Part shown: piece by piece, positions 88 to 19,001 of the stretch
Layout of the letters: each line of letters starts with the position of its first letter
Numbering within the stretch: position 1 is the stretch's first letter
Assembly (NCBI RefSeq): GCF_041261445.1
Contig: NZ_JBGCCU010000001.1
Span: forward strand, 434,001 to 498,000
Direction of reading: 5' to 3'
Source: Catenulispora sp. EB89
Lineage (GTDB): Bacteria; Actinomycetota; Actinomycetes; Streptomycetales; Catenulisporaceae
DNA length: 64,000 nucleotides
Made by a program: the position numbers and the translations under genes
The notes under the pieces: generated by a model
The model's input: only the letters and a program-made list of their open reading frames with translations
The model's database searches: none
What the model was told of the DNA's origin: nothing

Positions 88-98
88 GTAACCGTTTT
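88..98. promoter_or_regulatory. operator-like repeat GTAACCGTTTT
   Basis: This is an exact 11-base copy of the element inside the plus-strand promoter, 121 bases away, placed downstream of the minus-strand promoter. One regulator could bind both copies and control the divergent genes together. Confidence 0.4.
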
Positions 99-195: not shown

Positions 196-224
196 TTGAC
201 GCGGGACAGTAACCGTTTTAGGTT
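196..224 (+). promoter_or_regulatory. putative promoter of the sugar ABC operon with embedded operator
   Basis: TTGACG (196-201) and TAGGTT (219-224) are separated by 17 bases. The spacer contains GTAACCGTTTT (209-219), an exact copy of the 11-mer at 88-98. A related half-site, GAAAACGCTCC, lies at 240-250. The repeated CGTTTT/AAAACG half-sites resemble those of LacI-family operators, so I infer repression by the LacI protein encoded at 8275-9357. Confidence 0.55.
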
Positions 225-285: not shown

Positions 286-1245
286 ATGGCCGCAACGGCC
301 GCCGCAGCCGCCACGTCATCCGCGGCCAAGCCCCGTGACCGGACCCGCTGGGCCCGCTTCCGGCGGGACAAGGTCCTGTTGCTGATGATGCTCCCGGGCG
401 TGCTGTACTTCGGCGTCTTCCAGTACGCGGCGCAGCTCGGCAACATCATCGCCTTCAAGGACTACGTGCCCTTCGTCGGCATCAAGGACAGCGCCTGGGT
501 CGGCTTCCAGCAGTTCTCGACGCTGTTCGCCGACCCGGACTTCTGGCACGCGGTCCGCAACACCTTCGAACTGGCCCTGATCCAGCTGGTCTTCTTCTTC
601 CCGGTACCGCTGGCGCTGGCGATGTTCCTGTTCAGCCTGAGCCGGAACTGGGTGCGCAAGCTGGTGGTCAGCTTCGTCTACCTGCCGCACTTCATCTCGT
701 GGGTGGTGGTGGTCGGGCTGTTCGTGCAGGTGCTCGGACCGTCCGGGATGGTCAACAGCTTCCTGACCCACGACAGCCACCACGTCGTGGTCAACGTCTT
801 CCGCGACCCCTCCTGGTTCAAGCCGATGATGCTGATCGAGCTGATCTGGAAGGACTGCGGCTGGGGCACGATCATCTTCCTGGCCGCGCTGTACCAGGTG
901 GACGACTCGCTCTACGAGGCCGCCTCGCTCGACGGCGCCGGCTGGGCCCGCCGCACCTGGCACGTCACCCTGCCCTCGATCCGGCCGGTCATCGTGCTGC
1001 TGCTGATCCTGCGGGTCGGCGACATCCTGTCGGTCGGCTTCGACCAGGTGATGCAGCAGCGCGACACGTTCACGCCGGCCGCGGCGGAAGTGATCGACAC
1101 CTACGTCTACAACCACGGCGTCGGCAGCGGCCAGTTCTCCGTCGCGGCGGTCGCCGGCCTGCTCAAGGGGCTGGTGGCGATGGTCCTGGTGATCGGCGCC
1201 AACAAGGTCGCGCACAAGCTCGGTGAGCAGGGGGTCTACCAGTGA
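286..1245 (+). CDS. ABC transporter permease, CUT1 sugar type (LplB-like)
   Basis: This is an inner-membrane subunit of a carbohydrate importer, 319 aa. The ATG at 286 is preceded by GGGAGG at 274-279; an upstream in-frame extension lacks a ribosome binding site and would start upstream of the promoter. A basic N-terminus is followed by a first membrane segment (about residues 28-50) and several more. The permease EAA loop is visible as EAASLDGAGWARRTWHVTLP near residues 210-230, the contact site for the ATPase. The type resembles LplB/YtcQ-associated polysaccharide permeases. The stop overlaps the next permease by 4 bases. No ATPase gene is present nearby, so a shared MsiK-like ATPase is probable (inference). 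Confidence 0.9.
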   Translation: MAATAAAAATSSAAKPRDRTRWARFRRDKVLLLMMLPGVLYFGVFQYAAQLGNIIAFKDYVPFVGIKDSAWVGFQQFSTLFADPDFWHAVRNTFELALIQLVFFFPVPLALAMFLFSLSRNWVRKLVVSFVYLPHFISWVVVVGLFVQVLGPSGMVNSFLTHDSHHVVVNVFRDPSWFKPMMLIELIWKDCGWGTIIFLAALYQVDDSLYEAASLDGAGWARRTWHVTLPSIRPVIVLLLILRVGDILSVGFDQVMQQRDTFTPAAAEVIDTYVYNHGVGSGQFSVAAVAGLLKGLVAMVLVIGANKVAHKLGEQGVYQ

Positions 1246-2141
1246 GCGTCGAGAGCTCGAATCTGCGCCCGGCGTGGATGGGCCGGCCCCGGCCGGCGGT
1301 CAGCGCGCTGAAGGCGGCCACGGTCGTGGTGATCCTGGCACTGATCGCGGTGCCGTTCTGGCTGGTGTTCGCCACCTCGGTGTCCTCCGACGCCAAGGTG
1401 AACGCCAACGGCGGCTGGTCGCTGTGGCCGGACGAGCTGGACTTCTCCGCCTACACCAACGTCTTCAAGGGCGGGACCATCGGCCACGCGCTGTGGGTCT
1501 CGGTCCTGGTGACCGTGCTCGGCACCGCGCTGAGCCTGGCCTCGACGACGTTCCTGGCCTACGCGCTGTCCCGGCCGAACGTGCTGGCCGGCAAGCCGAT
1601 CCTGCTGGCCGTCCTGTTCACGTTCCTGTTCCCGGCCGGCATGATCCCGAGCTTCCTGGTGGTCACCGACCTGCACCTGTTCGACCATCTGGCCGCGCTG
1701 TTCGTCCCGGTGATGATCAACGTCTTCAACCTGGTCATCATGCGCGGCTTCTTCCAGGGCATCCCGGAGGAGCTGTACGAGGCGGCGCGGCTGGACGGCG
1801 CCGGGGATCTCAGGACCCTGTTCCGGATCGTGCTGCCGCTGTCCAAGGCGATCATCGCGGTGGTCGGCCTGTACTACGCGGTCGGCTACTGGAACGACTA
1901 CTTCCGGGCGATGCTCTACACCAACGGCGGCTCGCTGAACCCGCTGTCCACGGTGCTGCGCGGCTTCGTCATCGCCGGCAACAACCCCAACGCCGAGGCC
2001 GGCGTGGACATCACCGGCATCGCCCCGATGAAGGCGATCTCCGCCCTGGTGGTCATCGCGATCGTGCCGATCGCCGCCGCCTTCCCCTTCCTGCAGCGCT
2101 ACTTCACCAAGGGCGTCATGACCGGCGCCGTCAAGAGCTAA
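1242..2141 (+). CDS. ABC transporter permease, CUT1 sugar type (AraQ/YtcP-like)
   Basis: This is the second membrane subunit of the sugar importer, 299 aa. The GTG start overlaps the stop of the preceding permease (GTGA), showing translational coupling. It has about six membrane segments. The EAA loop reads EAARLDGAGDLRTLFRIVLP around residue 180. It is the partner of the upstream LplB-like permease; together they form the channel for an oligosaccharide delivered by the lipoprotein encoded immediately downstream. Confidence 0.9.
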   Translation: MSVESSNLRPAWMGRPRPAVSALKAATVVVILALIAVPFWLVFATSVSSDAKVNANGGWSLWPDELDFSAYTNVFKGGTIGHALWVSVLVTVLGTALSLASTTFLAYALSRPNVLAGKPILLAVLFTFLFPAGMIPSFLVVTDLHLFDHLAALFVPVMINVFNLVIMRGFFQGIPEELYEAARLDGAGDLRTLFRIVLPLSKAIIAVVGLYYAVGYWNDYFRAMLYTNGGSLNPLSTVLRGFVIAGNNPNAEAGVDITGIAPMKAISALVVIAIVPIAAAFPFLQRYFTKGVMTGAVKS

Positions 2142-2155
2142 GGAGCCGCACTGTC

Positions 2156-3826
2156 ATGCCGCAGCAGATCTCTCGCAGGACCGTCCTGCGCACCACCGGT
2201 GCCGCCGCCGTCGCGGCCGCCGCCGCTCCCGCCCTGGCGGCCTGCGGCGGGTCCAAGACCTCCTCGGGCGCCGCGCAGTCCAACGTCGACAAGAAGCTGA
2301 TGGCCTGGCCGACGTACACGCCGGTCGCCGGCCTGCACCCGGACCTGCCGGGCACCGCGGCCGGCGTGCAGGACACCTTCCTGCGCTACCCGGCGAACCT
2401 GGTCCAGTCGGTGCCGACCAAGCCCGGCGACGGGTCGAAGGTGCGGGCCCTGATCGTCACCTACGGCACGCAGCCCAAGGGTCCGGACCAGAACAAGCTG
2501 TGGAAGGCCGTCAACGACGCCGCCGGGGTGGACCTGGAGCTCACGATGGTCACCGACGCCGACTGGCAGACCAAGCTCGGCGCCATGATGGCCGCCTCGG
2601 ACCTGCCGGACATCATCATGCTGGGCCTGTACCAGCTGCCGAACGAGGCGCAGTTCCTGCAGGCCAAGTGCGAGCCGCTGGGCCAGTACCTGTCCGGGGA
2701 CGCGGGGGCGAAGGCCTACCCGAACCTGGCCGCGATCCCGCCGTACAGCTGGGACTCGGTGGGCCGTGTCGGCGGCGACTTCTACGCGATCCCGATCCAC
2801 CGGCCACGGCTGGGGAACTCGTTCTTCGCGAACTCCGACCTGTTCCAGCAGGCCGGGATCTGGAATCCGACGCCGGGCGGCCTGACGAAGGCGGAGCTGA
2901 CCGCGGGGCTGCAGAAGCTGAACACCCAGGGCCACTTCGCACTCGGGACCAACAAGGTCGCCTCGTTCGGGTACCTCACGCACTCCGGGGTGCACGGCAC
3001 GCCGAACCTGTGGTCGCTGGCCAACGGCCAGTTCACCACCGCGTACGGCACCGACGCGATGAAGGCGTCGCTGGCGACCATGGCCGACTGGTACGGCAAG
3101 GGGTTCTACGACCCGGCTGCCCTGACGGTGTCGAGCACGCAGTGCAAGACCGACTTCCAGAACGGTACCTACGTCAGCACCACCGACGGGTTCGGCGGCT
3201 TCGGCGGCTACGCGACCGCCGTGAACGAGAAGTGGAAGGTCGACTTCGTCCGGCCCTTCGACGCCGGCACCGGTGCCAAGGCGACCCCGTGGCTGACGCC
3301 GGGCTACTTCGGTTACACGGCCTTGAAGAAGGCGTCGCCGGAGCGGATCAAAATGCTGCTCGGCGTCCTGAACTTCCTGGCGGCGCCCTTCGGCTCCAAG
3401 GAGTGGGAGCTGATCAACTACGGCATCGAGGGCGTGCACTTCACCCGCGGCGCCGACGGCGGTCCGTCCAAGCCGACCGACCTGGGCAAGATCGAGAACT
3501 CGGTGAACGTGCCGTTCAAGTACGTCATGGCCGCCCCGCTGGTGAACTACCTCGCCGGAGAGCCGGAGGCGGCCAAGCGCTGCTACCAGGCGCAGGTGGA
3601 CATCGTGCCGCTCGGCGTGCCGGACCCGAGCCTGGGCATCCAGTCCGCGACCCGGAACAAGCAGTGGCCGACGCTGTTGCAGCAGATCCAGGACGGGATG
3701 AACCAGATCATCACCGGGAAGGCGGCGCTGTCGTCGTGGGACGACGTCATCAAGAAGTGGAAGAGCAGCGGCGGCGACCAGATCGCGGCCGAGCTCGGGG
3801 CCGAATTCGCGAAGACCCACAATTAG
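2156..3826 (+). CDS. extracellular sugar-binding lipoprotein of the ABC importer
   Basis: This 556-aa substrate-binding protein is exported by the Tat route and lipid-anchored. The N-terminus has the twin-arginine motif SRRTVLR, an Ala-rich core and a lipobox LAAC near residue 29. The ATG at 2156 follows AAGGAG at 2140-2145, 14 bases after the second permease. The size (over 500 aa) fits the LplA/polysaccharide-binding group rather than the approximately 430-aa simple sugar binders, so the ligand is probably an oligosaccharide. It sits between the permeases and the lyase. The 3' end is tandemly repeated (see 3813-3880). Confidence 0.88.
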   Translation: MPQQISRRTVLRTTGAAAVAAAAAPALAACGGSKTSSGAAQSNVDKKLMAWPTYTPVAGLHPDLPGTAAGVQDTFLRYPANLVQSVPTKPGDGSKVRALIVTYGTQPKGPDQNKLWKAVNDAAGVDLELTMVTDADWQTKLGAMMAASDLPDIIMLGLYQLPNEAQFLQAKCEPLGQYLSGDAGAKAYPNLAAIPPYSWDSVGRVGGDFYAIPIHRPRLGNSFFANSDLFQQAGIWNPTPGGLTKAELTAGLQKLNTQGHFALGTNKVASFGYLTHSGVHGTPNLWSLANGQFTTAYGTDAMKASLATMADWYGKGFYDPAALTVSSTQCKTDFQNGTYVSTTDGFGGFGGYATAVNEKWKVDFVRPFDAGTGAKATPWLTPGYFGYTALKKASPERIKMLLGVLNFLAAPFGSKEWELINYGIEGVHFTRGADGGPSKPTDLGKIENSVNVPFKYVMAAPLVNYLAGEPEAAKRCYQAQVDIVPLGVPDPSLGIQSATRNKQWPTLLQQIQDGMNQIITGKAALSSWDDVIKKWKSSGGDQIAAELGAEFAKTHN

Positions 3827-3880
3827 CTACAGACCCACAATTAGACACAGATCCACAATTAGACACAGACCCACAGCTGA
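3813..3880 (+). repeat. 18-bp tandem repeat spanning the stop codon of the binding-protein gene
   Basis: Units of 18 bases begin at 3813, 3831, 3849 and, diverged, at 3867. The consensus is AGACCCACAATTAGACAC. The first copy holds the real TAG stop (3824-3826); the second and third copies repeat the same stop triplet. The array fills most of the gap before the lyase gene. It looks like a slippage duplication of the gene end. Confidence 0.85.
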
Positions 3881-3892
3881 GATGATCTGCGC

Positions 3893-5593
3893 ATGAACTA
3901 CCTGGCCGCCCTGGAAGACGAAGTCCGCGACGTCGTGGCGAGGGCGGCCGGGTCCGCCGCGCCCGAGCTGACGTTCACGCTCTACCGCGAGTTCGGTGAC
4001 ACCGGACACCGCTACGGCTACGAGCATCCCTACTTCGAACGGCGCGGACGGCTGGTCGCGGCCGGCGCGGCGGCGATGTTCGACGTGCGCGCGGACGGTG
4101 TCGTGAGCGCGGACGTGCTGAGCGTCCTGGCCGACGAGCTGTGGCGGGTCTGCGACGAGTACACCTGGGCCCTGCCCGCGCACGTCTACCACGCCCGCGA
4201 CGGGGACATGCGGCGCTGCGTCGACCTGTTCGCGGCCGAGACCGCGCACAGCGTCGCCGAGCTGATCGGCCGCTTCGGGAAGCAGCTGCCCGAGGACGTG
4301 ACGATGCGCTGCCGCGAGGAACTGCTGGACCGGGTCTTCATCCCGTTCGCCGACGACCAGCGGCCGATGGCCTTCGAGAGCATGACCAACAACTGGCTCG
4401 CGGTGGTCGCCGGCGGCGTCGGGATGGCCGCGCTGGCCTTCTTCCCGGACGACGCCAAGCGGCTGGCCATGATCCTGAAGCGCGCGCAGAAGTCGCTGCG
4501 CCGCTTCATCGAGCACTACCCGGACGACGGCGGCTGCTCGGAGGGCATGGACTACTGGGTCTACGGCTTCGGGTACTTCGCCTACTTCGCCGAGGCGTGG
4601 CGCGAGCACGGCGGTCCGGATCTGTTGCTGGACAAGAAGATCCGCGAGATCGCGGCGTTCCCGTCCCGGGTCGGATTCGGCGACGGCCGGTTCCCGAGCT
4701 TCTCCGACGGCTCGGAGACCGCGGAGATCCCGACCGGGTTGATGTCGCGGCTGGTCGAACGGCTCGGGGTGCCGGTGCCGTATCTGACGGCCGTGCCGAG
4801 CTTCGCGTCGGACTTCTGCCATCGCTGGCCGCACCTCGCCAAGAACATCGAGTGGACGACCGAGCGCGTCCTGGACCAGCCGACCGCACCGGGCGTCGCG
4901 TATCTGCCGGATCTGGCCTGGGTCGTGGACCGCGGCGGCGAGGCGGAGTTCGCGGCCAAGGGCGGGCACAACGACGAGTTCCACAACCATCTGGACGTCG
5001 GGCAGTTCATCCTCCGCGGTCACGGCGAGACGCTGCTGATGGATCTGGGCGCCGGCGAGTACAACGCCGCCTACTTCGGGCCCGACCGGTATAAGGACGT
5101 TCATACCGCGGCCGAGGGCCATTCGATCCCGCTGATCGACGGCCGGGGGCAGCTGCCGGGCGCCGAGTACGCCGCGAAGGTCGAGCGCTTCGCCGAGACC
5201 GGCCAGGGTGCGATCCTCACCCTGGACCTGACCTCGGCGTACGAAGTCCCCGGGCTGCTCGCCGTCGGCCGCCGGTTCACCTGGCAGCGGCACGGCAGCC
5301 TGGTCGTGGTCGACCGGATCGAGACCGACCGCCCGATGCCTTTCGAGGAGGTCTTCATCAGCCGGATCCGGCCGGCGGTCGAGGCCGATCGCGTGGTGTG
5401 GGAAGGCGAGAAGGCGTGCTGCGTCCTCACGTGGAGCGGGCCGGTCGCGATGGCTCCCGCGCTGGAGACCGTCGAGACCACCGGTCATCGCGGAGAGCTG
5501 GAAAGCGTTTTCCGGATTCGGCTACGATGCTCCCTTGAGGCTGGTGGCAGCCGGCTGGAGTCCGTGTTCACCGTCGCGAGCAAGGAGCGTTGA
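3893..5593 (+). CDS. heparinase II/III-family polysaccharide lyase, cytoplasmic
   Basis: This 566-aa protein belongs to the heparinase II/III-like lyases, which cleave uronic-acid-containing glycans by beta-elimination. The N-terminal two-thirds is helical, as expected for the alpha/alpha toroid, with EGMDYWVYGFGYF near residue 219. The beta-sandwich part starts near residue 340 and carries the family signature GGHNDEFHNHLD with H359, H364 and H366, followed by LMDLGAGEYN. No signal peptide or lipobox is present, so it should act inside the cell on imported oligosaccharides. It stops 1 base into the DUF2264 gene, indicating coupling. The exact substrate cannot be read from sequence. Confidence 0.85.
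   Translation: MNYLAALEDEVRDVVARAAGSAAPELTFTLYREFGDTGHRYGYEHPYFERRGRLVAAGAAAMFDVRADGVVSADVLSVLADELWRVCDEYTWALPAHVYHARDGDMRRCVDLFAAETAHSVAELIGRFGKQLPEDVTMRCREELLDRVFIPFADDQRPMAFESMTNNWLAVVAGGVGMAALAFFPDDAKRLAMILKRAQKSLRRFIEHYPDDGGCSEGMDYWVYGFGYFAYFAEAWREHGGPDLLLDKKIREIAAFPSRVGFGDGRFPSFSDGSETAEIPTGLMSRLVERLGVPVPYLTAVPSFASDFCHRWPHLAKNIEWTTERVLDQPTAPGVAYLPDLAWVVDRGGEAEFAAKGGHNDEFHNHLDVGQFILRGHGETLLMDLGAGEYNAAYFGPDRYKDVHTAAEGHSIPLIDGRGQLPGAEYAAKVERFAETGQGAILTLDLTSAYEVPGLLAVGRRFTWQRHGSLVVVDRIETDRPMPFEEVFISRIRPAVEADRVVWEGEKACCVLTWSGPVAMAPALETVETTGHRGELESVFRIRLRCSLEAGGSRLESVFTVASKER
5500..5513. promoter_or_regulatory. intragenic LacI-type operator GGAAAGCGTTTTCC
   Basis: This is a near-perfect 14-base palindrome in the last 100 bases of the lyase gene, about 80 bases before the DUF2264 start. 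It closely matches the perfect palindrome at 17851-17864 and the CGTTTT half-sites around 209-250 and 9371-9390. It could be an internal operator or roadblock site for the local LacI protein. Confidence 0.4.
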
Positions 5594-7491
5594 TGGCCGG
5601 CGCGTTGGATGTCCCCGAGGACCGGAACCTGTCCGAGCACACCGGCTGGACGCGGGCCCACTGGCTCGCGCAGGCCGACTACCTGCTCGACTCCTTGAAA
5701 CCGTTCGCCTCGCCGAGTTCGGCGCGCTTCGAGCTGCCGGGCCGGCCCAGCGTCTCGGGCTTCGACTCGGACGCCTTGGAGGGCTTCGCCCGCACCTTCC
5801 TGCTCGCGGCGTGGCGGATCGTCGCCGACCGGGGCCAGGGGCCGGTCGCCGAGGACCTGATCGCCCGGTATTCCTCGGGCCTCGCCGCCGGTGCGGACGC
5901 CTCGCATCCCGAGGCCTGGCCTCGGATCCCGCAGGGCCGGCCGGGGCAGCCGATGGTCGAGGCGGCCTCGATCGCGCTGGGACTCCACTACACGCGCGAA
6001 TGGCTCTGGGACCGGCTGGACCCGCGGGCCCAGGGGCTCGTCGCCGACTGGCTCGGCGAGTTCATCGGCAATCCGACCTGGCCGAACAACTGGATGCTGT
6101 TCCAGACGGTGACCGAGGAGTTCCTGTCCTCGATCGGCGCGCGATATGAGGAGTCCGAGATCCTTCGCGGTCTCGACGCGACCGAGGAGTGGTACGTCGG
6201 CGACGGCTGGTACACCGACGGCGCCGGCCGCAACTTCGACTACTACATCGGCTGGGCCATGCACCTGTATCCGCTGGTGTGGACGCAGATGGCCGAGGGC
6301 GGGGCGCGGGGTGAGCGGGCGCTCGCGGCGCGCGAGGTCTACCGGGACCGGCTGCGCCAGTTCCTGGAGCGCTACTTCGACTTCTTCGGCTCCGACGGCG
6401 CGCCGATCCACCAGGGCCGGTCGCTGACGTACCGGTTCGCGGCCGCCGCGCCGATCTGGGTCGGGGAGATGTTCGACTGTTCCCCTTACGACGCCGGGCT
6501 TTCGCGGCGCGCGGCCAGTGGCGTGCTGAAGCACTTCGCCGAGCACGGGGCGCCGGATGCGCGCGGTCTGCTGACCCTGGGGTGGCACGAGCCGTTCCTG
6601 CCGATGGTGCAGAACTATTCGGGCCCTGCTTCGCCCTACTGGGCCTCGAAGGGTTTCATCGGCTTGATGCTCCCGGCCGACCACAGGGTGTGGACGGCGC
6701 CGGAGTCGCCGCTGCCGGTGGAGGTCGGGAACTTCGACACCTCTATCGCGCCGGTCGGCTGGGCGCTGAGCGGGACCAAGGACGACGGCGTGGTCCGGCT
6801 GCTGAACCACGGCAGCGACAAGGCCTGGCACCACACGCCGCCGTTCGCCCCGCACACCGACGTGTTCTACTCGCCGCTGGCGTTCTCGACGGTGACCGCA
6901 CCGGACACCGCGCCGGAGGCGTGGGCCAAGCGGGTCGGGAACCACGTCGCGCTGATCGCGCCGGACGGCCGGGTATCCTCGCGGGCCGTGATCGAGCCGG
7001 GTGCGACGGCCGACGGGTCCGTCTCGTCGGAGCACGTCCCGGGCTTCGAGGCCGAGCCGGACGGCGCGGTGCTGCCGATCGAGGGCGCGCGGATCTCGAC
7101 CAGGGTGTCGGTGAAGGACGGTGTCGAGACCCGGGAGCACTCGGTGACGGCGCCGGCCGGCTGGACGGTGCGCGAGGGCGGGTATCCGGTCGCGGGACCT
7201 GAAGAGCCCCTGCGTGGCGAGAACGAGAAGCTGCCCGGGGCGTTCGCGGTCAACGATCTCGGGGTGATGTCGCGGATCGAGGGCCTGAGCACGTGGACCG
7301 CGGCCGGTGTGGACACCGAACTCGGCGCGAACGCGCTGGGGGCCTTCTCGGCGACGCCGTATCTGACGGCCGAGCATCCTGGCGGCACGGTGAGTTATCT
7401 GTCGAAGGTCATGGTGTATCGGCTTCCTGATGACGGTGCCGACGACGATGTCGATGGCGGAGCTGATGGCGGAGACGGGGTCGCGGAATGA
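5593..7491 (+). CDS. DUF2264-family protein, probable glycan-processing enzyme
   Basis: This 632-aa cytoplasmic protein is of the DUF2264 type, for which I know no firmly assigned reaction. The ATG at 5593 shares one base with the stop of the lyase gene and follows AAGGAG at 5582-5587. The N-terminal 400 residues are helix-rich with aromatic motifs such as GRNFDYYIGWAMHLYPLVW and GAPIHQGRSLTYRF, reminiscent of an alpha/alpha barrel glycoside enzyme. The C-terminal 220 residues look beta-rich. No signal peptide is seen. Tight coupling with the lyase and importer suggests it acts on the same imported uronide oligosaccharide (inference). The acidic GADDDVDGGADGG tail is low complexity. Confidence 0.75.
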   Translation: MAGALDVPEDRNLSEHTGWTRAHWLAQADYLLDSLKPFASPSSARFELPGRPSVSGFDSDALEGFARTFLLAAWRIVADRGQGPVAEDLIARYSSGLAAGADASHPEAWPRIPQGRPGQPMVEAASIALGLHYTREWLWDRLDPRAQGLVADWLGEFIGNPTWPNNWMLFQTVTEEFLSSIGARYEESEILRGLDATEEWYVGDGWYTDGAGRNFDYYIGWAMHLYPLVWTQMAEGGARGERALAAREVYRDRLRQFLERYFDFFGSDGAPIHQGRSLTYRFAAAAPIWVGEMFDCSPYDAGLSRRAASGVLKHFAEHGAPDARGLLTLGWHEPFLPMVQNYSGPASPYWASKGFIGLMLPADHRVWTAPESPLPVEVGNFDTSIAPVGWALSGTKDDGVVRLLNHGSDKAWHHTPPFAPHTDVFYSPLAFSTVTAPDTAPEAWAKRVGNHVALIAPDGRVSSRAVIEPGATADGSVSSEHVPGFEAEPDGAVLPIEGARISTRVSVKDGVETREHSVTAPAGWTVREGGYPVAGPEEPLRGENEKLPGAFAVNDLGVMSRIEGLSTWTAAGVDTELGANALGAFSATPYLTAEHPGGTVSYLSKVMVYRLPDDGADDDVDGGADGGDGVAE

Positions 7492-8261
7492 GTTGGCCGT
7501 TGGCGTTCTCCACCTTGGGCTGCTCCGGGATGCCGTTGGCGGATGTCGTGGAGCTGGCGCGGTCCACAGGGTGGCTCGGGCTGGAGCTGCGCGCTGCCGA
7601 TGACGAGCCTGTGCATATCGGGTTGCCTGTGGATGAGCGGGCCGCCGCGCGGGAGTTGCTGGAGTCCGGCGGCGTCACGGTGTTGGCGGTTGCTTCATAT
7701 GTCAAAGTGGCCAGCGGTGCTGTCGGCGACGACGAGTGCGTCGCGGATGCGTTGGCGCACGCGGAACTCGCTCGGGATCTGGGGGCGCCTTTCGTGCGCG
7801 TCTTCCCTGGCGCGGAGGAGCCCGGGACGGAGGCGGACGCGCGCGCTGTGCGCCGATTGAATGCGATTGCGGCGCAATTGCCCGAAGGCGTCACGATTCT
7901 GTTGGAGACTCACGACAGTCATCCACAGGGTGTGGATATCGCGCGGGTGCTGTCGCAGGTTTCCGGTGATGTCGGGACGATCTGGGACGTCATGCATCCG
8001 TGGCGGACCGGCGAGCCGATCGCCGTCACGAAGGAAGTGCTGGCGCCGTATCTGCGGCACGTGCAGGTGAAGGACGTGCTGTCGCCGGAGGAGCGGACGC
8101 CGTTGCCGCTCGGCGAGGGCACGATCCCGCTGCCCGAGTTCTACGCCGCGTTGCGGGAGCTGGGGTATGAGGGCTGGGTGTCGTTGGAGTGGGAGTCCAA
8201 GTGGCACCCCGAGGCGGTGCCGCTGGCCGAGGCGTTGAAGGTGAAGCCGGTCTTCGGCTGA
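7488..8261 (+). CDS. sugar phosphate isomerase/epimerase (xylose isomerase-like TIM barrel)
   Basis: This 257-aa TIM barrel of the AP endonuclease 2/xylose isomerase-like family isomerises or epimerises a small sugar or keto-acid with a divalent metal. Likely metal ligands are in LLETHDSHP, TIWDVMHPW, HVQVKDVL and SLEWESKW. The ATG overlaps the DUF2264 stop by 4 bases (ATGA), making it the last gene of the six-gene operon. In the locus it would convert the monosaccharide released by the lyase into a central intermediate (inference). It converges on the LacI gene with a 13-base gap. Confidence 0.82.
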   Translation: MSWPLAFSTLGCSGMPLADVVELARSTGWLGLELRAADDEPVHIGLPVDERAAARELLESGGVTVLAVASYVKVASGAVGDDECVADALAHAELARDLGAPFVRVFPGAEEPGTEADARAVRRLNAIAAQLPEGVTILLETHDSHPQGVDIARVLSQVSGDVGTIWDVMHPWRTGEPIAVTKEVLAPYLRHVQVKDVLSPEERTPLPLGEGTIPLPEFYAALRELGYEGWVSLEWESKWHPEAVPLAEALKVKPVFG

Positions 8262-8274
8262 GGCCGTCGCCGAC

Positions 8275-9357
8275 TCAGACGTTGATCCGCGGCCGCACCG
8301 AATCCCGCAGCACGATGTGGGTGCCCAGCATCACGTGCTGGTTCGGGGCGGCCGCTTCGTCGCGGTGCAGGGCCAGGCGGACGGCTTCGCGGCCGAGTTC
8401 CATGTGCGGGATCGAGACGGTGGTCAGCGCCGGGTAGAGGTCCTGCGCTTCTTGCTCGTCGTTGTATCCGATCACCGACACGTCGTCCGGCACCGATACC
8501 CCGGCCTCCCGGAACGCGACGAGTGCGCGGGCCGCGATGTGGTCGTCCCAGGCGAAGACCGCGGTGAAGTCCGGCGGGCCCGCGGCCAGCCGCTTCTTGA
8601 GCTCGGCGTAGGCGAACGGCGGGAGTTGGTTGCCGACGATCACCAGGCTCGGGTCCTCGGCGACGCCGTAAGCCTGGATGGCGCGGCGGTAGCCGTCGAG
8701 GCGGTCGCGGGTCGTGGTGTTCTGCGGGTCGCCGCCGATGAACAGGACCCTGCGATGCCCCTGGGACAGCAGGTGGCTGGTCGCGGCGAAGGCGCCGCCG
8801 GCGTTGTCGTACTCGACCACCGTCACCGGCAGGTTCTCGCCGGGCGAGGGGCGTCCGCAGACCACGAGGCGTGAGCCCGCGCTGTCCAGGAGTCGGGCCA
8901 GGCGCGCCATGTGCTCGCGGTACTCGGGGCCGTCGATGACGCCGCCGACCAGGACCACGGCGTCGACGCTCTGCTCGCGCAGCGTCTCGACCAGTTTCAC
9001 CTCGCGCTCCGGGTCGCCGCCGGTGGTGCTCACCATGCACAGCCGGTCCTCGGCGACCGCCTGCTGCTCCACGCCGGAGGCGACGCGGTTGTAGAAGGGC
9101 GAGGTGAGGTTGGAGAGCAGGACCGCGATGATCTTGGAGCGGTTGCCGGCCAGCGCGCGGGCGTGCGCGTTGACGACGTAGTCCAGGTCGCGGACCGCGC
9201 GCAGGACCCTGGTGCGGGTGGTGGCGGCGACCGGGTAGTTGCCGGTGAGGACCCGGGAGACGGTCGCGACCGAGACCCCCGCGCGGGTGGCCACGTCGCG
9301 GATGGTCGCCGCGCGGCCTTGGGGGGAACCGGCGTCGCTGTCAGGTCGTCTCGCCAC
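8275..9357 (-). CDS. LacI-family transcriptional regulator of the glycan locus
   Basis: This 360-aa protein has an N-terminal LacI helix-turn-helix (ATIRDVATRAGVSVATVSRV, residues about 17-36), then a hinge around DYVVNAHARALAGNRSK and a periplasmic-binding-protein-like effector domain. It converges with the transporter/lyase operon and is the obvious local regulator; the inducer would be a sugar from the imported glycan. Its own start is preceded by a palindromic region (9358-9390), consistent with autoregulation. Confidence 0.88.
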   Translation of the reverse strand: MARRPDSDAGSPQGRAATIRDVATRAGVSVATVSRVLTGNYPVAATTRTRVLRAVRDLDYVVNAHARALAGNRSKIIAVLLSNLTSPFYNRVASGVEQQAVAEDRLCMVSTTGGDPEREVKLVETLREQSVDAVVLVGGVIDGPEYREHMARLARLLDSAGSRLVVCGRPSPGENLPVTVVEYDNAGGAFAATSHLLSQGHRRVLFIGGDPQNTTTRDRLDGYRRAIQAYGVAEDPSLVIVGNQLPPFAYAELKKRLAAGPPDFTAVFAWDDHIAARALVAFREAGVSVPDDVSVIGYNDEQEAQDLYPALTTVSIPHMELGREAVRLALHRDEAAAPNQHVMLGTHIVLRDSVRPRINV

Positions 9358-14728: not shown

Positions 14729-15559
14729 TCAGAGCCCCGAGGCGGCGCTGACCGCCTCGTGGCGGGCCCGGACGGTGGCGATGGTCCGGTCGCCGTCCGT
14801 GTCCCAGATCTCCTGGTTGAAGATCTCCACCTCGGCGTGGCCCTTCCACCCCGCGGCGGTGACCAGAGCCCGCATCCGCGCGAAGTCGATGTGGCCGTCG
14901 CCGACGTGCCCTCGGCCCAGCAGCATGTCGGCCGGCAGCGGCACGACCCAGTCGCACTCCTGGTAGGACAGGATCCGGTTCCCCGCGCCGGCACGGGCGA
15001 TCGACGCCTCCAGCCGCGGGTCCCACCACACGTGGTAGGTGTCGACGACGACGCCGACCTGCTCGGCCGGGAACGCCTCGGCGATGTCGAGGGCCTGCCC
15101 GAGCGTGGAGACCACGGCGCGGTCGGCGCAGAACATCGGGTGCAGCGGCTCGATCGCGAGCTTCACCCCGTGCTCGGCGGCGAACGGCGCGAGATCGGCG
15201 ATGCTCTCGGCGACCGTGGTGCGGGCGGCGGGCAGGTCCTTGGAGCCGGCGGGCAGCCCACCGACGACGAGGACGAGCACGTCGGTGCCGACGCCGGCGG
15301 CTTCCAGGACCGCCTGCTTGTTGTCGGCGAGCGCGGCGGCGCGTTCCTCGGTGTTGGCGGCGGTCATGAAGCCGCCCCGGCACAGGCTGGTGACTTCGAG
15401 GCCTGACTCGCGCACGATCTTGGCGGCGCCCTCGATGCCGATCTCCTGCACGCGGTCGCGCCACAGGCCGATGGCCGGGACGCCGGCGCGGACGCAGCCG
15501 TCGACGGCCTCGGCGAGGGTGAGGCGCTTGACGGTGGCCTGGTTCAGGGAGAGCTTCAT
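14729..15559 (-). CDS. sugar phosphate isomerase/epimerase (TIM barrel)
   Basis: This 276-aa xylose isomerase-like TIM barrel is the last gene of a three-gene minus-strand operon. Metal-site motifs are LAIEPLHPMF, VVVDTYHVWWDP, HVGDGHIDF and AEVEIFN. The ATG overlaps the stop of the DUF993 gene by 4 bases. It probably isomerises or epimerises a keto-sugar made by the upstream dehydrogenase (inference). It is clearly distinct from the other TIM barrel in the window at 7488-8261. Confidence 0.83.
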   Translation of the reverse strand: MKLSLNQATVKRLTLAEAVDGCVRAGVPAIGLWRDRVQEIGIEGAAKIVRESGLEVTSLCRGGFMTAANTEERAAALADNKQAVLEAAGVGTDVLVLVVGGLPAGSKDLPAARTTVAESIADLAPFAAEHGVKLAIEPLHPMFCADRAVVSTLGQALDIAEAFPAEQVGVVVDTYHVWWDPRLEASIARAGAGNRILSYQECDWVVPLPADMLLGRGHVGDGHIDFARMRALVTAAGWKGHAEVEIFNQEIWDTDGDRTIATVRARHEAVSAASGL

Positions 15560-16632
15560 GCGACGACCGCCGCGAACCGGGCCGCGGCCAGTTCCGGATC
15601 GTCGATGACCCCGGCGATCTCCGCCAGCCGCAACAGCTCCGTCAGGTGCTCCGCGTCGCGTGCCGTCTCCAGGCCGCCGACCATCGTGAAGTGGTCCTGG
15701 TGGCCGTTCAGGTAGGCCAGGAAGACCAGGCCGGCCTTGTAGTTGAACGTCGGCTTCTCGAAGATGTGCCGCGACAGCTCGACCGTCGGCCCCATCAGCC
15801 GGTCGTACGCCTCCAGGTCGCCGCGGTCCAGTGCCTGGAGGGCCTGTGAGGCGGGGCGCGCGATGCCGTCGAAGATGCCGAGCAGCGCGTCGGAGTGGCC
15901 GGCGTCGTCGCCCTTGATGAGTTCCGGGTAGTTGAAGTCGTCGCCGGTGTAGAGGCGGACTCTTTCCGGGAGTTCGCTGCGGAGTTCGAGTTCGTAGTCG
16001 GCGTTCAGCAGGGAGATCTTGATGCCGTCGACCTTCGCCGGGTTGGCGTTGATCAGCTCCAGGACCGTCGCCATCGCGGTCGGGATGTCCGGCGAGCCCC
16101 AGTAGCCGGCCAGGGCGGGGTCGAACATGTCGCCCAGCCAGTGCAGGATCACCGGGTTCGAGGCCTGATTCAGCAGGGATCCGTAGACGGTCAGGTAGTC
16201 CTCGGCCGACTGTGCGGACGCGGCCATGGCGCGGCTGGCCATCAGGATCACGCGGGCGCCGGCCGCCTCGACGACGCCGAGCTGCTCCTCGTACGCGGCT
16301 TTGATATCAGGGAGCGAATGCGCGCCCGGCGCCAGCTGGTCGGTGCCCGCGCCGCACGCGAGCAGCGCAGGCACGTTGGCTGAGTCAACCGCCTTCGCCG
16401 CCGCACCGCTGCGCCGGATCAGCTCCTGCGTCGCCGACCAGTCCAGCCCCATCCCGCGCTGCGCGGTGTCCATGGCGTCCGCGATGCCGAAGCCCAGCGA
16501 CCACAGGTGCTCGCGGAAGCGCAGCGTCGCGTCCCAGTCCAGGACCGCGGGCTTGCCCGCGCCGTTGTCCGCGTCCGGATCCGCCACAACGTGCGCGGCG
16601 GCATACACGACGCGCGAAGTGAAGCCGCTCAT
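15556..16632 (-). CDS. DUF993-family, dihydrodipicolinate synthase-like aldolase
   Basis: This 358-aa protein resembles the DUF993 group of DapA-like TIM-barrel lyases. The likely Schiff-base lysine is in VDGIKISLLNADYE, and the later RLYTGDDFNYPELIKGDD matches the ligand loop seen in DapA-type enzymes. The start at 16632 lies 8 bases after the dehydrogenase stop. It is flanked by a Gfo/Idh oxidoreductase and a TIM isomerase, so a retro-aldol or lyase step on an oxidised sugar or cyclitol is likely (inference). No reaction is established for the group that I know of. Confidence 0.8.
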   Translation of the reverse strand: MSGFTSRVVYAAAHVVADPDADNGAGKPAVLDWDATLRFREHLWSLGFGIADAMDTAQRGMGLDWSATQELIRRSGAAAKAVDSANVPALLACGAGTDQLAPGAHSLPDIKAAYEEQLGVVEAAGARVILMASRAMAASAQSAEDYLTVYGSLLNQASNPVILHWLGDMFDPALAGYWGSPDIPTAMATVLELINANPAKVDGIKISLLNADYELELRSELPERVRLYTGDDFNYPELIKGDDAGHSDALLGIFDGIARPASQALQALDRGDLEAYDRLMGPTVELSRHIFEKPTFNYKAGLVFLAYLNGHQDHFTMVGGLETARDAEHLTELLRLAEIAGVIDDPELAAARFAAVVA

Positions 16633-16640
16633 CGCGCCGC

Positions 16641-17801
16641 TCACTTCCCGGCCCGGTCGAGCTCCGGCACGGCGACCTTGCGCCCCTCGCGCCAGGACTG
16701 CGCGCCGAGCTCGGCCAGCTGTACGCCGCGCGCCCCGGCCCACAGGTCGTGGCGGTACGGCGCGTCGGCGACCAGGTGCGCGAGGAACATCTCCCACTGC
16801 ACCTTGAAGCCGTTGTCCATGACGGCGTTGTCCGGCACCTCCTGCCACTGCGCGAGGAAGTCCTCGGTCGCCGGGATGTCCGGGTTCCACACCGGCTTCG
16901 GCGTCGCGGCGCGGTGCTGCGCCTTGCAGGTGCGCAGCCCGGCGACGGCGCTGCCGTGCGTGCCGTCGATCTGGAACTCGACCAGCTCCTCGCGGTGCAC
17001 GCGCGTGGTCCACGAGGAGTTCAGCGAGGCGACGATCCCGCCTTCGAGCTCGAAGATGGCGTACGCGGCGTCGTCGGCCGTGGCCTTGTACTCCCGGCCC
17101 TGCTCGTCCCAGCGCGTCGGGATGTCCGTGCGGGCCTCGGCGTAGACGCTCCGGACCGGCGCGATCACGTGGTCCAGCACGTACCGCCAGTGCGGGAACA
17201 TGTCCAGGATGATGCCGCCGCCGTCCTCGCTGCGGTAGTTCCACGACGGCCGCTGCGCCGGCTGCCAGTCGCCCTCGAAGACCCAGTACCCGAACTCGCC
17301 GCGCACCGACAGGATGCGGCCGAAGAAACCGGAGTCCACGAGCCGCTTCAACTTCAGCAGGCCCGGCAGGAACAGCTTGTCCTGCACCACGCCGTGCTTG
17401 ATCCCGGCGGCGTCGGCGATCTGCGCGAGCCGGACCGCCTCCTGCAGCGTCTCGGCCGTCGGCTTCTCGGTGTAGATGTGCTTGCCGGCCTCGATCGCCT
17501 TGGTCAGCGCCGGGACGCGGGCCTGCGTGACCTGCGCGTCGAAGTAGACGGTGACCGACGGGTCGGCCAGCGCCTCGTCCAGGGAGGTGGTCCACTTGTC
17601 CAGGCCGTGCTGGGCGGCCAGCGCCTCGATCTTCTCGGCGTTGCGGCCGACCAGGACCGGCTCGGGCCAGACGGTGCGGCCGTCGGGCAGCGCCAGGCCG
17701 CCCTGCTCGCGGATCGCCAGGATCGACCGGAGCAGGTGCTGCCGGTAGCCCATGCGTCCGGTGACGCCGTTCATCGCTATGCCGATCACTTCGCGTGTCA
17801 T
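16641..17801 (-). CDS. Gfo/Idh/MocA-family NAD(P)-dependent oxidoreductase
   Basis: This 386-aa sugar/cyclitol dehydrogenase is the first gene of the minus-strand operon. The Rossmann motif is GIAMNGVTGRMGYRQ at residues 7-21, and the conserved EKP of the family is in YTEKPTAET near residue 100. The C-terminal alpha/beta substrate domain follows, with RGEFGYWVFEGDW. The ATG lies downstream of the LacI palindrome at 17851, so expression should respond to the divergent LacI regulator. The substrate is not deducible. Confidence 0.85.
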   Translation of the reverse strand: MTREVIGIAMNGVTGRMGYRQHLLRSILAIREQGGLALPDGRTVWPEPVLVGRNAEKIEALAAQHGLDKWTTSLDEALADPSVTVYFDAQVTQARVPALTKAIEAGKHIYTEKPTAETLQEAVRLAQIADAAGIKHGVVQDKLFLPGLLKLKRLVDSGFFGRILSVRGEFGYWVFEGDWQPAQRPSWNYRSEDGGGIILDMFPHWRYVLDHVIAPVRSVYAEARTDIPTRWDEQGREYKATADDAAYAIFELEGGIVASLNSSWTTRVHREELVEFQIDGTHGSAVAGLRTCKAQHRAATPKPVWNPDIPATEDFLAQWQEVPDNAVMDNGFKVQWEMFLAHLVADAPYRHDLWAGARGVQLAELGAQSWREGRKVAVPELDRAGK

Positions 17802-17850
17802 CGCTGCTCCCGAGATCTAGTTGTGATCACCGAAAGGCCCGATCGGCACT

Positions 17851-17864
17851 GGAAAGCGCTTTCC
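17851..17864. promoter_or_regulatory. LacI-family operator, perfect palindrome GGAAAGCGCTTTCC
   Basis: This is a perfect 14-base palindrome in the 93-base gap between the divergent Gfo/Idh and LacI genes. It matches the classic LacI/CcpA-like core and sits where it can control both directions. Confidence 0.75.
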
Positions 17865-17882
17865 GAACCCGTCCTGAGGCGA

Positions 17883-17888
17883 TAGGTT
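17883..17888 (+). promoter_or_regulatory. -10 box TAGGTT of the LacI gene, probably leaderless
   Basis: TAGGTT ends 6 bases before the GTG start, so transcription would begin at or next to the start codon. No ribosome binding site is visible. The operator at 17851-17864 overlaps the expected -35 position, giving simple autorepression. Confidence 0.5.
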
Positions 17889-17894
17889 ACGAGC

Positions 17895-19001
17895 GTGTCC
17901 ACGCAGAGGTCAACACCCTCGCCGGCCCCGCGCCGCGTCGGCGCCACGCTGCAGCAGGTGGCCGACGCCGCGGGCGTCTCGCTGGCCACCGCCTCGCGAG
18001 TGCTGAACGGCAGCACCCGGATCGTGAACGCGGAGCTGAGCGAGCACGTGCGCGAGGTCGCCACCCGGCTGCGCTACGTCTCGAACGGCCCGGCGCAGGC
18101 TTTGGCGCGCGCGACGACGTCGCTGGTCGGGCTGCTCGTGCACGACGTCAACGACCCGTACTTCTCGGCCATCGCGGCCGGTGCGATGCGGGTGGCGCGC
18201 GAGCGGGACCTGCTGGTGATGGTCGCGAACACCTACCGCGAGCCGGCTCTGGAACTGGACTACATCACCCGCCTCGGGGCCCAGCGGGCCCGCGCGATCC
18301 TGGTCGCCGGCTCGCCGCCGGTGGACCCGGCGCTGGCCGAGCCGCTGCGCGAGCGGCTGCTGGACTACCAGCAGGGCGGCGGACGCGTGGTGACCATCGG
18401 CGACCAGGGGCCGGAGATCGACGCGGTGCTGCCGGCGAACGTACAGGGCGCGCGGGAAGCGGCGCTGCATCTGACCGGGCTGGGGCACCGCGAGATCGGG
18501 ATGGTCGTCGGGCCGCGCGGACTCGTCACGATCGCCGACCGCTCCGAGGGGTTTCGCAGAGGGCTGGCGGAGAGCGCGGGGGATCCGGTCGTCGCGCACG
18601 AGATCGAGGGCGACTTCACGCGCGACGGCGGATACGACGCCACCCGGCGGCTGCTGGCCGAGCATCCCGGGGTGACGGCGGTGTTCGCGATGGCGGACGT
18701 GATGGCCATCGGGGCGCTGGCCGCGCTGCGCGAGGCCGGGCGGCGCGTGCCGGCGGACGTGAGCCTGGTCGGCTTCGACGACCTGCCGATCTGCGCCGAT
18801 CTGGTGCCCGCGCTGACGACGGTGCGCGTCGATACCGAGGGCATGGGGGCGCAGGCTATGCGGATGGTGGTCGAGCCGGTCGCTGAGGCTGCCGAGGATG
18901 CAGAGAGCGCGGAGGGCACGGAGGGCGAGGCCGAGGGGCGCACCGTCGTGCACAGTGCTACTGAACTGATTGTGCGGGGGAGCACAGGGCCGCCCGCCTG
19001 A
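17895..19001 (+). CDS. LacI-family transcriptional regulator
   Basis: This 368-aa regulator has a helix-turn-helix at residues about 17-40 (ATLQQVADAAGVSLATASRVL) and an effector-binding domain with DVNDPYFSAIAAGAM and the dimer-interface motif VSLVGFDDLPICADLVPALTTV. A GTG start is used, apparently on a leaderless transcript. It is divergent from the Gfo/Idh-DUF993-isomerase operon, with one perfect operator between them. The C-terminus carries an acidic AEAAEDAESAEGTEGEAEG insertion before the last beta-strands. Confidence 0.88.
   Translation: MSTQRSTPSPAPRRVGATLQQVADAAGVSLATASRVLNGSTRIVNAELSEHVREVATRLRYVSNGPAQALARATTSLVGLLVHDVNDPYFSAIAAGAMRVARERDLLVMVANTYREPALELDYITRLGAQRARAILVAGSPPVDPALAEPLRERLLDYQQGGGRVVTIGDQGPEIDAVLPANVQGAREAALHLTGLGHREIGMVVGPRGLVTIADRSEGFRRGLAESAGDPVVAHEIEGDFTRDGGYDATRRLLAEHPGVTAVFAMADVMAIGALAALREAGRRVPADVSLVGFDDLPICADLVPALTTVRVDTEGMGAQAMRMVVEPVAEAAEDAESAEGTEGEAEGRTVVHSATELIVRGSTGPPA

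Follow-up and report, generated by a model that had tools for sequence, protein, structure and literature searches.

Where a permease pair, a lipoprotein and a polysaccharide lyase are encoded side by side, and the importer has no ATPase gene of its own while the lyase has no export signal, the question arises which glycan is taken up, what drives its uptake and on which side of the membrane it is cut. Such a locus lies at the left end of the DNA analyzed here, a window of 64,000 nucleotides (C1:434001–498000) from the 11.9 Mb genome of the soil actinobacterium Catenulispora sp. EB89, whose closest named relative in our lyase comparison is Catenulispora rubra (96%). Import of acidic glycans before cutting is best known from the uptake of alginate by Sphingomonas. 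We consider it probable that the locus is a LacI-linked catabolic unit for oligosaccharides containing glucuronic acid (GlcA), which would first be imported and then cleaved by elimination inside the cell; substrate, transport, ATPase partner, enzymatic activities and regulation are all putative assignments in this reading.

A Conserved Operon of Six Genes

The six plus-strand genes form one operon, the coordinates of which were read directly from the sequence (Table 1). Three of the five junctions overlap by 4 bases, and the remaining gaps measure 14 bases between the second permease and the lipoprotein and 66 bases between the lipoprotein and the lyase. Because the same gene order is found in four other Catenulispora genomes (protein identity 78–97%), this layout is not a product of chance. 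The six coupled or tightly spaced genes proposed in a preliminary description of this DNA are confirmed by the coordinates, the Pfam assignments and the order kept in congeners. The unit continues to the left of base 1: A divergent dehydrogenase gene is followed by a phosphodiesterase-like gene, and both are kept in Catenulispora.

Two further observations concern the same window. A tandem repeat of 3.5 copies of 18 bp (window 3813–3875) contains the last bases of the binding-protein gene a second time, stop included, and was not seen in the congeners examined. Farther to the right, a second sugar cluster (window 14729–19001) comprises genes for a TIM isomerase, an oxidoreductase-like protein and a LacI protein, all of them named from their N-termini only.

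Table 1. Features of the locus; positions refer to the window unless C1 is given.
Feature	Position	Strand	Basis
D-2-hydroxyacid dehydrogenase, 5′ end; runs off the left edge	1–66 (whole gene C1:433044–434066)	−	PF02826, E 1.7e-42
Phosphodiesterase-like gene, beyond the window, after the dehydrogenase gene	C1:432181–433020	−	PF01663, E 9.3e-21
Operator-like site GTAACCGTTTT, dehydrogenase side	88–98		conserved in importer-bearing congeners
Apparent promoter TTGACG-17-TAGGTT, second GTAACCGTTTT at 209–219 in the spacer	196–224	+	read from sequence
CUT1-type permease 1	286–1245	+	PF00528 (BPD_transp_1), E 2.6e-12
CUT1-type permease 2	1242–2141	+	PF00528 (BPD_transp_1), E 2.5e-11; 4-base overlap with permease 1
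Tat-type lipoprotein, putatively sugar-binding, AlgQ/Smon0123-like fold	2156–3826	+	profile matches; model of pLDDT 71 matched by Foldseek
Leaderless PL33_2-like lyase (predicted)	3893–5593	+	Hepar_II_III_C (Pfam); PL33 structures nearest; no export signal
DUF2264 protein, predicted GH154-type glucuronate dehydratase	5590–7491	+	PF10022, E 2.9e-112; catalytic residues kept; overlaps lyase gene by 4 bases
Xylose-isomerase-like TIM-barrel protein	7488–8261	+	PF01261 (AP_endonuc_2), E 2.3e-33; overlaps DUF2264 gene by 4 bases
LacI-family regulator, presumed repressor	8275–9357	−	PF00356, PF13377

A PL33-Like Lyase and a Predicted Glucuronate Dehydratase

The solved proteins nearest to the lyase are the PL33 enzymes 8r75, 8r6z and 8r70 (E 2e-26 to 4e-25), to which its sequence likeness is only distant. 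In PL33, the catalytic residues N238, Y291 and H444 (BtPL33 numbering) are invariant, R103 and H154 are ligands of GlcA, and the −1 site is occupied by Trp242 in PL33_1 and by Val in PL33_2 (PMC11848413). The window lyase has N167, Y221 and H364 at the catalytic positions, R40 and H97 in place of the GlcA ligands, and V171 at the W242 site, and each of these residues is kept in all 80 relatives that we read; W239, Y470 and F475 of BtPL33 are present as well. Eight more distant paralogues carry Trp at the W242 site, and the V-type clade is monophyletic against the W-type paralogues in a tree. At aligned position 224, 75 of the 80 relatives have Tyr and the other five Phe; site 301, for which the PL33 paper describes a covarying His-to-Tyr exchange, was matched here to His294 by alignment. 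From these residues, the protein is predicted to be a PL33-like lyase with a PL33_2 signature and an eliminase acting on a GlcA glycan.

A comparison with the PL33 lyases already described, BT4410/BtPL33HA and the ObPL33 enzymes for gellan and chondroitin sulfate, shows a common set of catalytic Asn, Tyr and His, GlcA-binding Arg and His, a second Tyr and a Phe; the Val at the W242 site is common to the window lyase and PL33_2 (PMC11848413). Unlike those enzymes, the window lyase is leaderless and adjoins an ABC importer. Characterized PL33_2 enzymes act on gellan or chondroitin sulfate, one of them with some activity on glucuronan (PMC11848413). Since the window lyase has PL33-like residues and a +1 site of the GlcA type, pectin and alginate, which the preliminary description had listed among the candidate substrates, are unlikely, and gellan-, chondroitin- or glucuronan-type glycans would fit better.

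The lyase had been described as lacking an export signal, and this holds for the window protein and the 80 relatives: As a proxy we took the best 15-residue Kyte–Doolittle mean rather than SignalP, and none of these proteins exceeds 1.57, while five of six exported controls score 1.9–2.5. The sixth control, a Tat lipoprotein, scores only 1.31, so that the proxy may miss weak Tat signals. By the same scan, the DUF2264 protein has no export signal either. The solved members of its family are GH154, and for two of them, BcGDH and BT_3677, glucuronate dehydratase activity has been demonstrated (PMC12269599). The window protein is a longer form (633 aa) than BcGDH but has the family and the three catalytic residues (Y229, R285 and Y289 of BcGDH) in common with it; it belongs to GH154 and, as judged from these residues, is predicted to be a glucuronate dehydratase rather than a protein of unknown role.

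The Importer and Its Candidate ATPase

The N-terminus of the binding protein has a Tat-like RR and a lipobox-like LAAC, and the protein matches no Pfam or NCBIfam family. Profiles built from its relatives match several sugar binders, Smon0123 and AlgQ1 included. Smon0123 was the top match in the first profile search; neutral-sugar binders are close to the acidic-sugar binders by profile. An AlphaFold model from 12 sequences reached a pLDDT of 71 (an earlier model only 45), and in a Foldseek comparison of this model AlgQ2 and Smon0123 come out first. Comparison by profile and modeled fold would make the lipoprotein a CUT1-type sugar-binding protein, and the comparison with LplA-like structures suggested earlier points to an LplA/AlgQ-like protein. 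In VIA-align, acidic- and neutral-sugar binders are nearly tied in Z; the specificity is therefore not readable from the fold.

No ATPase gene was found in the operon or among the neighbors read on its left. The own genome encodes seven MalK-type ATPases, two of which (on C2 and C33) have no recognized importer genes beside them. These two orphans are 91% identical to each other and 73% (C2) and 71% (C33) identical to the sequence taken for MsiK of S. coelicolor; in support of these figures, both contain one published MsiK peptide, TQIASLQR. The genome presents the pattern of MsiK-dependent CUT1 systems: The importer genes encode a binding protein and a pair of permeases, no ATPase is encoded with them, and an MsiK-like ATPase stands on its own elsewhere. 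In line with the earlier proposal of an MsiK-like ATPase from elsewhere, we infer from these sequences that the C2 or the C33 protein is the candidate, shared import motor. Two other MalK-like ATPases of the genome, L066:775–1869 (C47) and L070:7164–8249 (C21), are without LSGGQ and have a seemingly changed H-loop; they are possibly degenerate or repurposed.

Operator-Like Sites and Presumed Regulator

The two operator-like sites between the dehydrogenase gene and the operon are 121–122 bp apart, and the pair is kept in the five importer-bearing Catenulispora loci. Outside this pair, just one further exact copy of GTAACCGTTTT was found in the genome. This third copy and two GGTTT variants were considered as additional sites of the unit and rejected, as their neighbors are apparently unrelated genes. 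We infer that the LacI protein encoded directly downstream of the operon is the regulator of the unit; LacI genes lie near 18 of the 80 lyase relatives.

Proposed Pathway and Known Systems

In the pathway that we propose, the AlgQ/Smon0123-type lipoprotein would capture a GlcA-containing oligosaccharide, which the two CUT1 permeases would bring into the cell, powered by an orphan MsiK-like ATPase encoded elsewhere in the genome. The cytoplasmic PL33_2-like lyase would then cut at GlcA by β-elimination and not by hydrolysis, and the GH154-type dehydratase would take water from the saturated terminal GlcA, whereby both kinds of chain end would become 4,5-unsaturated. The resulting 2-oxo-acid products would probably be processed by the divergent D-2-hydroxyacid dehydrogenase, together with the TIM-barrel protein in Catenulispora.

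The alternative is the usual order of events, in which the polymer would first be cut by an exported enzyme encoded elsewhere, short and already unsaturated oligomers would pass through the importer, and the leaderless lyase would only finish the degradation. Short oligomers are the usual cargo of such importers; moreover, unsaturated disaccharides are bound by Smon0123, in whose system the first cut is made outside (PMC5430744). However, no secreted lyase is encoded in the locus itself, and a dehydratase acting on saturated ends is a better fit with the import of saturated oligomers. We judge this order possible but unlikely, and prefer import followed by cutting.

Each of three known systems shares part of this logic. 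In the alginate import of Sphingomonas sp. A1 (AlgQ1/Q2, AlgM1M2SS), import also comes first, the lyase is inside, and the binding-protein fold is similar (PMC8286568, PMC8778563); there, however, the ATPase AlgS belongs to the system, whereas the locus described here has none and would use a shared MsiK-like ATPase, the substrate is alginate instead of a predicted GlcA glycan, and there is an outer-membrane pit, which is absent here. Smon0120–0123 of Streptobacillus moniliformis is likewise an ABC importer for acidic sugars whose cluster contains PL genes, but this glycosaminoglycan cluster places its lyases outside and encodes its own ATPase (PMC5430744). CebEFG of Streptomyces resembles the unit in that a binding protein and two permeases are encoded but no ATPase, with a repressor nearby and MsiK elsewhere on the chromosome, and differs in its sugar and in having no lyase (PMC4890002). 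The predicted GlcA-glycan module, which is real, conserved and LacI-linked, is a variant of such import-then-cut systems. A literature search for PL33 together with Paenibacillus importers found no paper, and none of the papers found on Catenulispora and polysaccharide lyases, judged by title, deals with a system of this kind.

The Last Breakdown Steps

In the known GH154 pathway, a GH88/105 partner acts in the same compartment; none was found here, and this partner is a trait of that pathway and not of the family. No leaderless GH88/105 was found in Catenulispora: Each Catenulispora genome examined has a single GH88/105, which looks exported by hydropathy where the start is readable, and in three other lyase-bearing genomes none was seen. 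Since the sole GH88/105 of Catenulispora is apparently exported, there is no known cytoplasmic enzyme for removing the unsaturated residue. For KduD, the own genome gave no match at E ≤ 1e-60, with 13 of 163 candidates unscored, and five congeners have matches of 320–336 bits, just below the cut-off; for both reasons we do not claim that KduD is absent. One PF04962 match on C4 of the own genome may be KduI or IolB.

How the unsaturated residue is released in genomes where no leaderless GH88/105 was found is a puzzle, and a concrete candidate for its solution is the D-2-hydroxyacid dehydrogenase. A GH88-independent intracellular route, in which this enzyme (with the TIM protein in Catenulispora) would replace the steps of unsaturated uronyl hydrolase, KduI and KduD, is offered tentatively, and we hold it to be rather doubtful. 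The bacterial DEH reductases listed in a review all fall into the SDR and β-HAD superfamilies (PMC8778563).

Recurrence in Other Genomes

A survey for the lyase confirmed at least 563 related stretches, and the 80 that were read come from Actinomycetota, Bacillota and Chloroflexota. Around these 80 lyase genes, which are not phylogenetically independent loci, a permease pair recurs in about 41, and thus in about half of them and in three phyla, DUF2264 in 23 and the dehydrogenase in 25; in a control sequence of 255 kb, mostly from the own genome, DUF2264 was matched nowhere and the dehydrogenase once, partially. Gene order around the lyase varies between genera, and the TIM-barrel gene is found in Catenulispora loci only. 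An Anaerolineae locus (L131) has the order KduD, GntR, leaderless GH88/105, binding protein, permease, permease, DUF2264 and lyase, its KduD lying above the curated cut-off. The import-then-cut logic put forward in the preliminary description gains from this adjacency of importer and lyase in other phyla. From our analysis we expect leaderless PL33-type lyases to form a large clade, with many members adjoining ABC importers, and the newly recognized glucuronate dehydratases are paired with such lyases.

The adjacent importer is, however, missing from five of ten Catenulispora genomes, which retain the enzymes; C. rubra and a MAG keep only a stub of the binding protein. In C. pinisilvae, a 70% relative of the importer is encoded elsewhere in the genome, where importer, dehydrogenase and LacI genes lie apart from the lyase genes. 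The dN/dS values of lyase, dehydratase and TIM genes are 0.07–0.20 against importer-less strains and 0.10–0.23 against importer-bearing ones, comparisons in which a recent loss would not show; the three genes look to be under purifying selection in the importer-less strains. Since these genomes keep the enzymes, the coupling between importer and lyase is not strict. One could therefore suppose that the glucuronide enters by another route and that the adjacent importer, being only loosely linked, serves different or broader sugars, in agreement with relatives of the binding protein that adjoin GH42 genes. Against this, permease pairs recur near the lyase as described above and the twin operator-like sites accompany the importer, and we regard such a separation as improbable. 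A role of the lyase-fold protein as an epimerase, or a loss of its activity, is very improbable, for although the uronyl epimerase DS-epi1 has the same fold and an actinobacterial PL33_2 enzyme was inactive on the panel tested (PMC11848413), every catalytic or ligand residue that we tested is present in all 80 relatives.

In the own genome, a sister cluster (L063:8447–19501, on C6) has DUF2264, LacI and dehydrogenase genes divergent from permease, permease, binding protein and, in place of the PL33-like lyase, a leaderless PL8-family lyase. The latter has no export signal, and its best solved match is 2wco, a Streptomyces-type "putative secreted lyase". In Streptomyces (locus L060), a W-type PL33-like lyase and an importer are accompanied by a GH38 α-mannosidase and an HTH-ROK regulator, and the genes flanking the third DUF2264 gene of the own genome (L064, about 3.5–11 kb, on C4) resemble those of L060, judged by N-termini only, which hints at a GlcA-mannose glycan at loci of the L060/L064 type.
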